Shown here: piece after piece, positions 17,006 through 20,487 of the stretch
Numbering within the stretch: position 1 is the stretch's first letter
Layout of the letters: every line of letters starts with the position of its first letter
The notes under the pieces: generated by a model
Seen by the model: the letters and a program-made list of their open reading frames with translations, nothing else
What the model was told of the DNA's origin: nothing
Database searches by the model: none
Virus record (IMG/VR): IMGVR_UViG_3300048028_000291
Span: 1 to 20,731 of that record
Source: a virus
Strand: one strand, 5' to 3'
Length of the DNA: 20,731 bases
Program-made: the position numbers and the translations under genes

Positions 17006-18835
17006 TTATCTAGTACCCCCAGCCCTTGTTTCTAAGCGCATAGTACCAACACGCCATTTTGCAGCTTTAGTTCCATCTACCCTCATTCGTATTTGCCTAC
17101 CACTAAACCTAGCGTCTGTAGGGTTTGCAGGAGCAAATGGTCCATGTGATGTTTCTGTATCGTTAGGGTGATACCTTGTTTTAAAAGTCATGTTTACATC
17201 ACCTTGCGTAAGCTCATCAGGTATAACTGATGTAACGTACATAATATTATCACCGTTACCTATAGATACAGGGCCAGTTTCGCAAAAAACAGAACCGCTA
17301 TCATAATTTAAACCCTGTTCGTGGTTCCAAACTAAAACAGGCTCTATCACGTTTGCTGTTCCACCCATTCCGCTATGGTTACTGCAATAATAATAAAGTG
17401 TTGAAGGAGTGCTATCTGTTACGGTTATTTCTGTATAGGCTCCTGCATTTCCTGCCGAACCTGTTGTGACAACATTTGTTGAATAAGCCGACCCACCGCC
17501 ATGCGTTCCATTAGATGTTGTAGAAAATTGAAACGGATGATTTATATTTGATGCGTCTGATTGGTCAAAACGATATACGCCACCTTTTTTTAATGTTATC
17601 GTAGGAGCCGCACCAGAATGGTCTGATATGAAATACTTATTTCCACCACCACTTGCAGCTACAGTTACATTATAAGTTATATTCTCAGCATTTTCGCCGC
17701 TTAAAACTGGCGTTCTGAATACACCCCTAGAAACCCCACCAGTTCTTGATAAATTGCCAATTAACCAATGGTTCTCAAGCAAATCAAATGCAACGTATCT
17801 ATCTATCTCTAAGCTACTTGATGATGGGTAAAACCACCAAACTTCACTAAACTCTGTATTGCTAAACGCCCATATTTTAGATTGTTGGTTAACATTTATA
17901 TCGTCAAAAACGTAGTCGTGAACTTCGCAAGGTATTTCTCTAACAGAGTTACCATCAAAACCAAAGAAGCCTTTTTGCCCCATCCAGAAAGAACCCATGT
18001 CTGTATCAACAGCCGACATACGAGAAACTGCTCCGCAAGAAGTTCCAACCCTATTAAATCCATAAACGTAGGGCGGTCCAAGGTATTTTGCAGAAAACGC
18101 ATCACTATCAGTAATTATAAGCGTCTGGCCTCTTGTCTTTAAACCTTGCATAATTTGACCAGTAGTTTGCAGTAAAATATCTCCTGCCTCATTGGTTGCC
18201 GCTGGCGTCCAGACTGTATTGTTTTCTTTGTCGCACCATTGTACTTTTCTAGGATCGCCTCCTGCGCCTAAACAAAATATAAATCTTTCCTCAGTTACAA
18301 CTAATCCAAGATTGTTTGTCGGAGCATTTGCGACAGGTGCAGCAACAGCGCTGGAACCAAGTTGCCACTCTACCAATGTACCAGTGTCGTAATGAACACC
18401 GACTAAATACTGCCCAAAGTTATCTAACGACCATGATGTTGCTTCAGAGTATGTGCCAGTAGCAGGGCGTTGTGTTCCAAAATATCCAGTACCGTAAAAG
18501 CCACCACCAAAACCTAAATTTAACCCTGCATCTTCGCGCCCAGTAGACATAGACGTTGGCGTAATATCGTAGGTTGTACCCGAACCTGTCATGGCTGTTA
18601 ATTCGTTATGAGATCCTGCCGCAAAGTATGCCGTTCCATTATTGCTTTCCCAAGCGTGTGCGCCTCTAATTGGGTTTGCACAAAACCCTTTTTTAAAATT
18701 TTGCCACCCCCCAATAGGCCGAAGAGAACCATCACGCCACCTTACTAAGCTACCGTCACGCCATCTATTAGAAGCGTCAAACTCTGTTCCGTTTCGGTAA
18801 AATCCTGCTTTTAAATCTAATGGTACTAAAGGCAT
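17006..18835 (-). CDS. Tail hub/nozzle-like protein with inserted cupredoxin domain
   Basis: A 609-residue protein with the N-terminus MPLVPLDLKAGFYRNGTEFD, RWRDGSLVRWRDGS and IGGWQ, typical of podovirus tail proteins next to the portal-proximal fibers. Residues about 50-370 read as a repeated beta structure resembling a propeller (PIRGAHAWESNNGTAYFAAG, VTEERFIFCLGAGGD, FWMGQKGFFGFDG), as in T7 gp12 or P22 gp10. Residues about 384-497 interrupt it with a cupredoxin-like domain carrying His433, Cys484, His487 and Met490; the tail fold resumes at VLVWNHEQGLNYDSGS and runs to the end. The ATG at 18835 is chosen, one base after the fiber stop; the frame is open to 18976 but that region codes for the fiber. 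Tail role is well supported; exact position in the tail is inferred. Confidence 0.75.
   Translation of the reverse strand: MPLVPLDLKAGFYRNGTEFDASNRWRDGSLVRWRDGSLRPIGGWQNFKKGFCANPIRGAHAWESNNGTAYFAAGSHNELTAMTGSGTTYDITPTSMSTGREDAGLNLGFGGGFYGTGYFGTQRPATGTYSEATSWSLDNFGQYLVGVHYDTGTLVEWQLGSSAVAAPVANAPTNNLGLVVTEERFIFCLGAGGDPRKVQWCDKENNTVWTPAATNEAGDILLQTTGQIMQGLKTRGQTLIITDSDAFSAKYLGPPYVYGFNRVGTSCGAVSRMSAVDTDMGSFWMGQKGFFGFDGNSVREIPCEVHDYVFDDINVNQQSKIWAFSNTEFSEVWWFYPSSSSLEIDRYVAFDLLENHWLIGNLSRTGGVSRGVFRTPVLSGENAENITYNVTVAASGGGNKYFISDHSGAAPTITLKKGGVYRFDQSDASNINHPFQFSTTSNGTHGGGSAYSTNVVTTGSAGNAGAYTEITVTDSTPSTLYYYCSNHSGMGGTANVIEPVLVWNHEQGLNYDSGSVFCETGPVSIGNGDNIMYVTSVIPDELTQGDVNMTFKTRYHPNDTETSHGPFAPANPTDARFSGRQIRMRVDGTKAAKWRVGTMRLETRAGGTR
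17345..17686 (-). other. Cupredoxin-like domain inserted in the tail protein
   Basis: Residues about 384-497 of the tail protein. It begins NITYNVTVAASGGGNKYFIS, passes TITLKKGGVYRFDQSD, NHPFQFST and GTHGGGSAYSTN, and ends TLYYYCSNHSGMGG. The Cys484-x2-His487-x2-Met490 set with upstream His433 is the ligand pattern of type 1 copper sites in plastocyanin-like proteins. The domain has clear edges, with Glu/Asn-rich and Pro joints. Copper binding itself is inferred from the ligands only. Confidence 0.7.
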
Positions 18836-18836
18836 A

Positions 18837-19652
18837 TTATTTCCAATGTGCAGCAGATAATTGCATGATTGCTGACCCTGAAACAACATTGCTTGCAGGG
18901 CTATTTTGGTCACATAAATAACTTGTCGTTCCTGTTGATGTACTTTCATCTTTCCAACAAAAATGATTAGTGGCACTTTCTAAATCTTGCTGTACTATTT
19001 GGTCTGAATTGCTGACTGTTACTGACCCAGCTGGATTAGTATCCTCAGTTATTCCAGAACCAATAGTCACTCCGTTGTATTGTGTTGAAAGCGAAATGGT
19101 TTTTGAAAAACTTGTATTATCTGTATTTTGCGCTGTAGCTGTAGCTGTAGGTGTAGAACTATTATAACCTGTTATTTCCCAAACATGAGTAACCGATCTA
19201 CCGCTACCACCGTTACCAGTTATTTGGGTAGAGCCAGAAGCAGAGGTAACTAAATAATAAACTGCCGATGTAAGCCCTGCGCCCCAAACGCCACCAGTAG
19301 GCGCTGTATCCATTTTTGCGGCAAGCGTAGCACTAACACCGCCCACATTAACAAAAGTATTGTTGCCCCCTGCCAGTTGACAAGTAACCACAACTAATTT
19401 TGAACCAGAACTTAAAGTAACATTTCCTGTTGGAAACCCATTACCAGTTGTAAGCGTTCGCCCCTTATAAACAGCGACAGGGGAAGCAGCAGAAACACCA
19501 TAGTAGTCATTAAATCTGTTTTCTGCGTTTGAACTTTTGCCAATCATATCACGAATATCAACATCGTTTATTGCAGCTTGTGAACCGCTACCGCCTCCTG
19601 CTTCAACGTGTATTTGATCTATTGTTATCTGACCGCTACTTGGCAGAGGCAT
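18837..19652 (-). CDS. Tail fiber/receptor-binding protein
   Basis: A 271-residue protein. Residues 1-52 (PLPSSGQITIDQIHVEAGGG, then NRFNDYYG) are the common attachment module of marine phage fiber proteins. The rest is Ser/Thr/Gly/Asn-rich beta structure, typical of a receptor-binding head (TGNVTLSSGSKLVVVTCQLA, VWEITGYNSSTPTATATAQN). Two Cys near the C-terminus (HFCWKD and YLCDQ) might form a disulfide or metal site. The start overlaps the end of the S74 gene by 17 bases in another frame, with GAGGAA 7 bases before the ATG. It probably determines host range together with the neighbouring fibers. Confidence 0.75.
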   Translation of the reverse strand: MPLPSSGQITIDQIHVEAGGGSGSQAAINDVDIRDMIGKSSNAENRFNDYYGVSAASPVAVYKGRTLTTGNGFPTGNVTLSSGSKLVVVTCQLAGGNNTFVNVGGVSATLAAKMDTAPTGGVWGAGLTSAVYYLVTSASGSTQITGNGGSGRSVTHVWEITGYNSSTPTATATAQNTDNTSFSKTISLSTQYNGVTIGSGITEDTNPAGSVTVSNSDQIVQQDLESATNHFCWKDESTSTGTTSYLCDQNSPASNVVSGSAIMQLSAAHWK

Positions 19653-20487
19653 TTTTTAGTTCCTCAATTTCTGCTTTTAATTCTTTAATAGCTTCTATTA
19701 ATAAACCATGAATTTGGTCATATTGCACCGTTTTGTATTCGACACCTTCTTGACCAGTGAAAGCTAAATTTTTAGTTTCTACCGCAGAAGGTAAAATTGC
19801 TTCGATTTCTTGCGCTATAACCCCTGCGCTTTTCTTTCCATCTTCGTTATAAGTAAATGTATAACCGTTAATTTGACAAACTTTATCCAACGCATTGTCA
19901 ATTTTATTAATGTCATGCTTTAAGCGTTGATCTGAAATAGTAGTAGAATAACCAATAATATTTGCGTCAACGTGCAAGTCACCACCGTCTGTGAGCCGCA
20001 TATCTTCGGCACCATTTGTGTAAAAACGCAAACCATTGTTTGTATCATATTCAATAAAATCGTTTGAATTTCCAGTGTATACAAGTGTATTGCTGTTTAT
20101 TCTCATATCGGTTTTAAGGGAAAATTCTAAATCATAAGGGTCTGCATCTGAACCTGTTGAGGTATCAGTCCAGTTTATATCAATGCCATGTCCTTCAACA
20201 AATTTTACTTCTTTACCTTCGGTAATAGTTACTTCTGTTCCATCACCATCCTCTAAAACAAAACTTTGCATAACGGTTTGTGAAGTGTCTAACGTAGCTA
20301 ATAAATCTAAATCTGCCGCCGTTACACTGCTTGAAGAGCCATTAATTGTGACAGTTGTTAGGTTTGGGGCAACAGTGCCTGTCGTTCCATTAGCGGCGTT
20401 TACAATAACATCTAATGCGTCATTGATGGTTTGACCCCACGTTCCCTCACTACCCCCAATAGTTGGTTTTGAAATACTAATCGCCAT
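19636..20487 (-). CDS. Tail fiber/spike protein with C-terminal S74 self-cleaving chaperone
   Basis: A 283-residue protein. Residues 1-70 (ISISKPTIGGSEGTWGQTIN region) are the attachment part common to marine phage fibers. The middle (about 70-180) is a beta-helix-like shaft with TNGAEDMRLTDGGDLHVDAN. Residues 181-283 form an intramolecular chaperone of the peptidase S74 family, with the cleavage motif SDQRLKHDI. Ser185 and Lys190 are in place as the catalytic dyad, followed by YTFTYNEDGKKSAGVIAQEI and a C-terminal coiled coil (LLIEAIKELKAEIEELKN). The chaperone trimerises the fiber and then cuts itself off. AGGAG precedes the ATG. The S74 assignment is very secure. Confidence 0.9.
   Translation of the reverse strand: MAISISKPTIGGSEGTWGQTINDALDVIVNAANGTTGTVAPNLTTVTINGSSSSVTAADLDLLATLDTSQTVMQSFVLEDGDGTEVTITEGKEVKFVEGHGIDINWTDTSTGSDADPYDLEFSLKTDMRINSNTLVYTGNSNDFIEYDTNNGLRFYTNGAEDMRLTDGGDLHVDANIIGYSTTISDQRLKHDINKIDNALDKVCQINGYTFTYNEDGKKSAGVIAQEIEAILPSAVETKNLAFTGQEGVEYKTVQYDQIHGLLIEAIKELKAEIEELKNASAK

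Follow-up and report, generated by a model that had tools for sequence, protein, structure and literature searches.

Our analysis of the virus record studied here, a stretch of 20,731 bases that we call the window, indicates that its tail nozzle protein carries one copy (the only one in the record) of a predicted cupredoxin-like domain, which we read, with a slight lean in favour, as a metal-stabilised putative surface or adhesion module inserted in the nozzle. As judged from sequence comparison, this module represents a marine subfamily that is widespread but has no name and whose ligand loop is as long as that of amicyanin, and selection acts on its putative ligand site as a unit. The features discussed below are collected in Table 1.

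Table 1. Nozzle gene, insert and predicted metal ligands in the window (residue numbers refer to the 609-residue nozzle protein).
Feature	Position	Strand	Basis
Tail nozzle protein gene (609 aa + stop; start at MPLVPL)	17006..18835	-	translation; PHROG 3287; AlphaFold2 model
Nozzle residues 1-377, upstream of insert	17705..18835	-	homology to insert-free relatives unbroken
Whole insert, residues 378-501 (124 aa)	17333..17704	-	judged against empty-site relatives; tree of gains and losses
Predicted cupredoxin-like domain, residues 386-499	17339..17680	-	AlphaFold2; Foldseek PDB matches; hhalign
His433, predicted first (N-terminal) ligand, NHPF	17537..17539	-	alignment, conservation
Cys484, predicted thiolate ligand, the domain's only Cys, YCSNHSGM	17384..17386	-	alignment, conservation
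His487, predicted second His ligand, YCSNHSGM	17375..17377	-	alignment, conservation
Met490, predicted axial ligand at H+3 (amicyanin spacing), YCSNHSGM	17366..17368	-	alignment, conservation
Nozzle residues 502-609, where the host fold resumes	17009..17332	-	homology to insert-free relatives unbroken; more variable than the pre-insert part

The nozzle protein begins at an ATG at 18833-18835 on the minus strand; an alternative frame of 656 aa with a GTG start, reaching 18976, is possible, but it overlaps the next gene. Residues 10-372 match PHROG 3287, a virion structural protein family (E 2e-80), and the whole protein was modelled by AlphaFold2 from 51 sequences with a pLDDT of 86.3. When this full-length model is compared with the PDB, the best 30 matches are all phage tail chains, the top one coming from the tail of phage Pa223 (E 6.9e-26), and other matches include Vibrio phage VP1, SU10, P22 gp10 and T7 gp12. 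An earlier reading of the same DNA, made from the sequence only, had described the protein as tail hub-like. That it is a phage tail protein holds, but since the full model resembles tail chains of this kind most closely, its class is the tail nozzle, and we assign it on the predicted structure to the P22 gp10/T7 gp12 class with a propeller-type fold.

Relatives of the nozzle, collected by searching with its pre-insert part (79 loci), indicate how the insert came to be where it is. In about 40 of them the insert site is short, a loop of 7-9 residues in most and of 24-48 residues in a remote group, and in the window and its closest relatives the site holds 116-135 residues (124 in the window). 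The site is empty in the protein of an Octadecabacter DB2 virus, which is 57-59% identical to the window on both flanks. The sequence-only reading had the host fold resuming after the insert, and indeed residues 502-609 are continuous with insert-free relatives. Three relatives (L231, L234 and L235) are 67-69% identical to the window over residues 159-376 and empty at its insert site, and instead have the domain placed at a second site, which lies among the first 500 residues of a form of the protein with 1017-1022 aa. On a tree of the nozzle built without the inserts, presence at the window's site (site A) needs at least three changes, and the second site (site B) is separate. We therefore reject a single acquisition of the module, given also the empty sites. 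Identity to the window jumps sharply at the joints of the insert, as expected of a recombining module: one relative (L016) is 94/97% identical before the insert, 82% within it and 98% after it, while for another (L002) the values are 94/97%, 92% and 72%. Among 50 related records that were searched in full, 44 lack the module, some of these 44 being fragments. We thus regard the insert, from the sequences and the models, as a presumably mobile, self-folding module added to a loop of the nozzle.

Two further observations concern the nozzle genes themselves. At loci L231 (832-3882) and L234 (952-4008) the nozzle forms have 1017-1019 aa, because residue 158 of the host protein is followed by about 500 additional residues; in this added region several similar repeats (NGDEVTYS...GGLTNGTNYFI) lie on either side of the cupredoxin-like domain. 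Separately, the last 108 residues of the nozzle (17009-17332; compared with L002, L005, L016 and L178) show 68-98% identity, against mostly >85% for residues 1-376; this switch in variability falls at the insert and looks like a recombination joint.

The domain within the insert had been called at residues of about 384-497 (17345-17686), and the call is borne out with its limits refined to those of Table 1. Modelled alone with 84 aligned copies, the insert is predicted to form an autonomous beta-sandwich (pLDDT 98.1, pTM 0.90), which has the Greek-key cupredoxin fold as judged by AlphaFold2 and PDB matches. A Foldseek comparison with the PDB places a copper nitrite reductase at the top (2dv6, E 6.5e-4, TM 0.65), followed by rusticyanin, pseudoazurin (one engineered with an amicyanin loop), laccases and plastocyanin. 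According to DSSP, a strand at 94-99 of the domain model ends at the Cys and the next runs from 107, which matches the placement of ligands in cupredoxins. We checked the correspondence of the ligands against ten genuine PF00127 proteins, taken from genomes that also carry the module: hhalign of the module profile with these proteins gives a probability of 95.4 and E 1.7e-8 over 77 columns, and in this profile-profile alignment the module's His, Cys, His and Met, all present at the numbering given by the sequence-only reading, fall on the four ligands of the PF00127 proteins.

Single sequences reach less far. The window copy scores 14.4 bits against Pfam PF00127 (Copper-bind), below the curated cut-off of 21.2, and PF00127 is matched at E <=0.1 in 17 of 84 relatives, with a best E of 2.3e-5. 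The PROSITE type 1 copper signature PS00196, [GA]-x(0,2)-[YSA]-x(0,1)-[VFY]-x-C-x(1,2)-[PG]-x(0,1)-H-x(2,4)-[MQ], fits 0 of 153 copies; no PROSITE signature is listed for amicyanin or pseudoazurin (PMC517927). Searches of Pfam, NCBIfam and PDB sequences for a known named domain returned sub-threshold matches only. Given the sub-threshold single-sequence Pfam score and the failure of PS00196, we place the module, from its sequence and model, as a predicted divergent member of the cupredoxin superfamily outside PF00127. A Bacteroidetes protein (L296, 1501-1752) has a domain that scores above the PF00127 cut-off and bears the module's motifs (GHPFYI, YYQCSLHNGM), making it a sequence bridge from classical cupredoxins to the marine module. 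The P-SSM2 copy (L275) and other gp9-type copies show a weak match to PF25489 (At5g54830-like; best E 2.9e-4, below cut-off), possibly a remote plant relative.

The sequence-only reading had called the ligand set plastocyanin-type. The four ligands are the same, but their C-x2-H-x2-M spacing is that of amicyanin, whose ligands are H53, C92, H95 and M98 (PMC517927). With the C-x2-H-x4-M loop of plastocyanin and pseudoazurin (PMC517927) the ligand would be Gly492, so we reject a plastocyanin-type spacing. The module has the predicted fold of amicyanin and pseudoazurin (PF00127) and the same four ligands in the same order, but the stretch from His433 to Cys484 is longer (51 residues versus 39 in amicyanin), and the second sphere is unlike that of classical cupredoxins: the first ligand is mostly followed by Pro (H-P) rather than by the Asn of PF00127 cupredoxins (H-N), and neither Pro nor Gly lies between Cys and His. 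The module also sits in virion and stalk proteins rather than forming a soluble electron carrier.

Could the ligands be a chance motif? Of the other ORFs with a length of 100 aa or more, 2324 in all, one has the pattern H-x30-80-C-x2-H-x2-5-M, and we reject chance on this rarity, on the cupredoxin fold with its ligand match, and on the conservation of the ligand columns. In 162 distinct copies these are the most conserved of the well-filled columns (M490 1.000, C484 0.987, H487 0.987 and H433 0.981). Exactly one Cys, always in C-x2-H, is present in 150 of the 153 copies of at least 85 aa, the other three having none; with one Cys per copy the ligand Cys is not in a disulfide, and we reject such a role for Cys484. 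The Met is kept in two copies that have lost the other three ligands, and so may be partly structural.

The sets used for conserved columns and Cys counts are partly biased, as the search patterns included LYYYC followed by H. We therefore turned to a pattern-free sample, in which twelve whole phage records were searched by profile and every copy was read. In this sample, where ligands were assigned by eye and several copies are orthologous, all four ligands are present in 19 distinct copies and at most one in 9, and two or three are present in none, although column shuffles lead one to expect 19 copies with two or three ligands and never give fewer than 8. The 19 complete copies have identities down to about 30%, and their Met lies three or four residues after the His (H+3 or H+4). 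Of the second copies borne by wedge proteins, two show a His in the expected position or beside it, and a remote PSS2 match (L273) was left out of the count as too partial. Collapsing the copies by lineage gives the same all-or-none result, the lineage numbers being our guess. Random loss of single ligands had been set beforehand as what would refute the copper-site idea, and the sample contains no such case; it also counters search bias as the source of the conservation. A metal site predicts all-or-none loss and a plain structural sandwich does not. Both states can occur in one protein: in the SAR86 protein L173, copy one reads N, S, A, M at the ligand positions and copy two is complete. Other ligand-less copies keep the rest of the pattern, namely those of a protein of about 490 aa (L276, L278, L279 and L283, from S-SSM5, ACG-2014d, S-RIM2 and S-RIM8) and a PSS2 copy (L261), a stand-alone small protein of about 112-119 aa, in which the ligands were lost together; such copies are natural controls lacking the metal ligands.

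The module is found at no fewer than 594 loci on viral contigs, and in 246 isolate phage records at E 1e-3 (373 at E 1). Its carriers are foremost phages of Synechococcus and Prochlorococcus, then phages of Pelagibacter and Methylophilales, and it is borne by tail fibres, by baseplate gp9 and wedge proteins, and by further virion structural proteins. Isolates that bear it include S-TIM5, P-SSM2, S-RIM2, the Pelagibacter phages Mosig and Baldr, and the Methylophilales phage Melnitz. By sequence it is contained in PHROGs 30742, 27200, 693, 677 and 708 (cyanophage tail fibre, gp9 baseplate connector and wedge proteins), which are named for the whole protein, with neither domain nor metal site named in any. 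The nearest viral protein models in BFVD superpose on the predicted domain at 0.8-1.2 Å. Two giant-virus "beta-sandwich proteins" in BFVD also match the predicted fold (A0A481Z6J5 and A0A481YVH3, from Pithovirus LCPAC302 and Marseillevirus LCMAC201).

Cells carry the module as well. We found 107 loci in prokaryote genomes, including SAR86, other Gammaproteobacteria, Bacteroidetes, Actinomarina and Poseidoniales archaea. Some of these matches look phage-like (for example L125, L142 and the Maricaulis IN14 contigs), but prophage contamination is rejected as a full account of the cellular copies, which include lipoprotein-like ORFs on contigs of 0.5-1.2 Mb. Several cellular carriers are lipoprotein-like; they contain collagen or cadherin/Ig repeats and have the module as their C-terminal end, at the tip of a stalk, and this position suggests a tip module common to phages and cells. 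Four loci of Poseidoniales/MGII archaea (L139, L154, L155 and L163) encode putative lipoproteins with collagen-like repeats that end in the module; at L139 the module gene adjoins nitroreductase and EamA transporter genes. At three cellular loci scanned, copper-related neighbour genes were not evident.

What might the module do in the nozzle? Because its four ligands are kept or lost together, the predicted site very probably binds a metal, and the sequence and the model make it fairly likely that this metal is copper rather than another. If the nozzle is hexameric, as in its relatives, six modules would ring the tail, each holding one metal ion, most likely copper, whose uptake may take place in the host envelope or once the virion is out of the reducing cytoplasm. 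By tying the N-terminal His to the Cys-His-Met loop, the ion would make the exposed beta-sandwich stiffer and protect it. The module would then work in adhesion to, or presentation at, the surface of the host, which is also the role supposed for the Ig-like domains of other tails; such a display role is suggested by its carriers (tail fibres, gp9, wedge and nozzle proteins, together with cellular stalk tips); electron transfer is not implied. Virions are assembled in the cytoplasm, where copper is scarce, and this cytoplasmic assembly, like the second sphere described above, counts against the copper reading. The more general proposal, that marine tailed phages commonly bear copper-loaded cupredoxins on their tails, of a kind also borne by the surface stalks of bacteria and archaea of the sea, and that the predicted metal is needed for adsorption, stability or triggering, we put forward only tentatively, at a little under an even chance.

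Several other readings of the same site have to be weighed against a copper-stabilised display module. The metal could be zinc or cuprous copper, acquired from the host cytoplasm at assembly and purely structural, with no relation to environmental copper or to redox chemistry. Assembly in the cytoplasm would suit this, a Cys-His2 site whose Met is weak might accommodate zinc, and the second sphere does differ from that of redox cupredoxins; however, zinc is poorly bound by Met, no residue is kept better than Met490, which is retained despite a change in loop length (H+3 or H+4), and all structural and profile matches are copper proteins, so that we consider this reading unlikely. Alternatively, the beta-sandwich may be purely structural and metal-free in phages, its ligands being relics or packing residues, as one might suppose from the ligand-less copies that evidently fold or function (PSS2, the ~490-aa family, second wedge copies). 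Against this stand the four ligands, whose columns are conserved above all others even where identity falls to about 30%, the all-or-none losses, and an unpaired Cys in 150 of 153 copies for which another use is not evident, and we judge it quite improbable.

The remaining alternatives give the metal an active part in infection. Copper on the tail might be bait, recognised by a copper or metallophore uptake protein of the host and leading the phage to its receptor as a copper "Trojan horse". Type 1 sites, however, keep their copper buried and tightly held, a receptor is not known, and the range of carriers (nozzle, baseplate, fibre and the cellular stalks of many phyla) is better fitted by a general module. 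The tail location, the marine hosts and the precedent of iron in tail fibres (PMC11705849) speak for bait, which we nonetheless regard as decidedly unlikely. Least supported, and highly improbable, is a redox-active tail that would pass an electron to or from a partner in the host envelope, thereby sensing contact or triggering ejection. The full type 1 ligand set and the amicyanin-length loop would allow it, but a redox partner gene was not seen in the 20,731-base window, the second sphere is unlike that of electron-transfer cupredoxins, and absence from most of the related records searched, some of them fragments, together with presence in many unrelated tail proteins, is better explained by decoration.

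Our preferred reading, a metal-stabilised display module, has partial precedents. The nozzle protein of SU10 is a hexamer in which Ig-like domains inserted in the propeller form the tail tip (PMC9509320), so that inserted sandwich domains in nozzle proteins are already known; the nozzle domain of T7 gp12 is likewise a beta-sandwich inserted in a propeller-bearing nozzle. In SU10, however, several Ig-like domains follow one another between the second and the third blade, with no metal site described, whereas the window nozzle has one cupredoxin domain after residue 377, near the C-terminal part. Metal on phage tails with a proposed role in host contact is also known or proposed, from the iron-binding HxH motifs in the fibres of T4 gp37 and alterophage R22Y and from the iron Trojan horse hypothesis (PMC11705849). 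Those sites are His-only, octahedral iron sites in trimeric fibres, in contrast to the predicted His2-Cys-Met site in a monomeric domain. The sequence-only reading had held that such a tail is not a standard phage idea. This is right insofar as we found no description of a cupredoxin in a phage tail in the open literature, most subscription journals lying outside the search, but it needs qualifying in view of the SU10 inserts, the iron of tail fibres and how common the module is in cyanophage, pelagiphage and methylophage tails. What is known, then, is the fold and the habit of decorating nozzles; what is new is their combination and its wide spread, and we read the module as a new virion subfamily of cupredoxins, with no description found in the literature covered.

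Should the site hold copper, a type 1 copper protein would be part of the virion in many ocean phages, giving the cupredoxin fold a new place and role, a counterpart to the iron-in-tails idea and possibly a handle on seawater copper. Even without copper, a module has been defined that is very common in virions and on cell surfaces and that lacks a name, and existing isolates that bear it make the copper question testable now. Elsewhere in the window, a 283-aa protein is encoded at 19636-20487 on the minus strand; over its C-terminal ~100 residues it resembles the ends of numerous tail fibre and long-tail-fibre families (PHROG 5668, E 7.5e-36), and it reads like an intramolecular chaperone (SDQRLKHDI).
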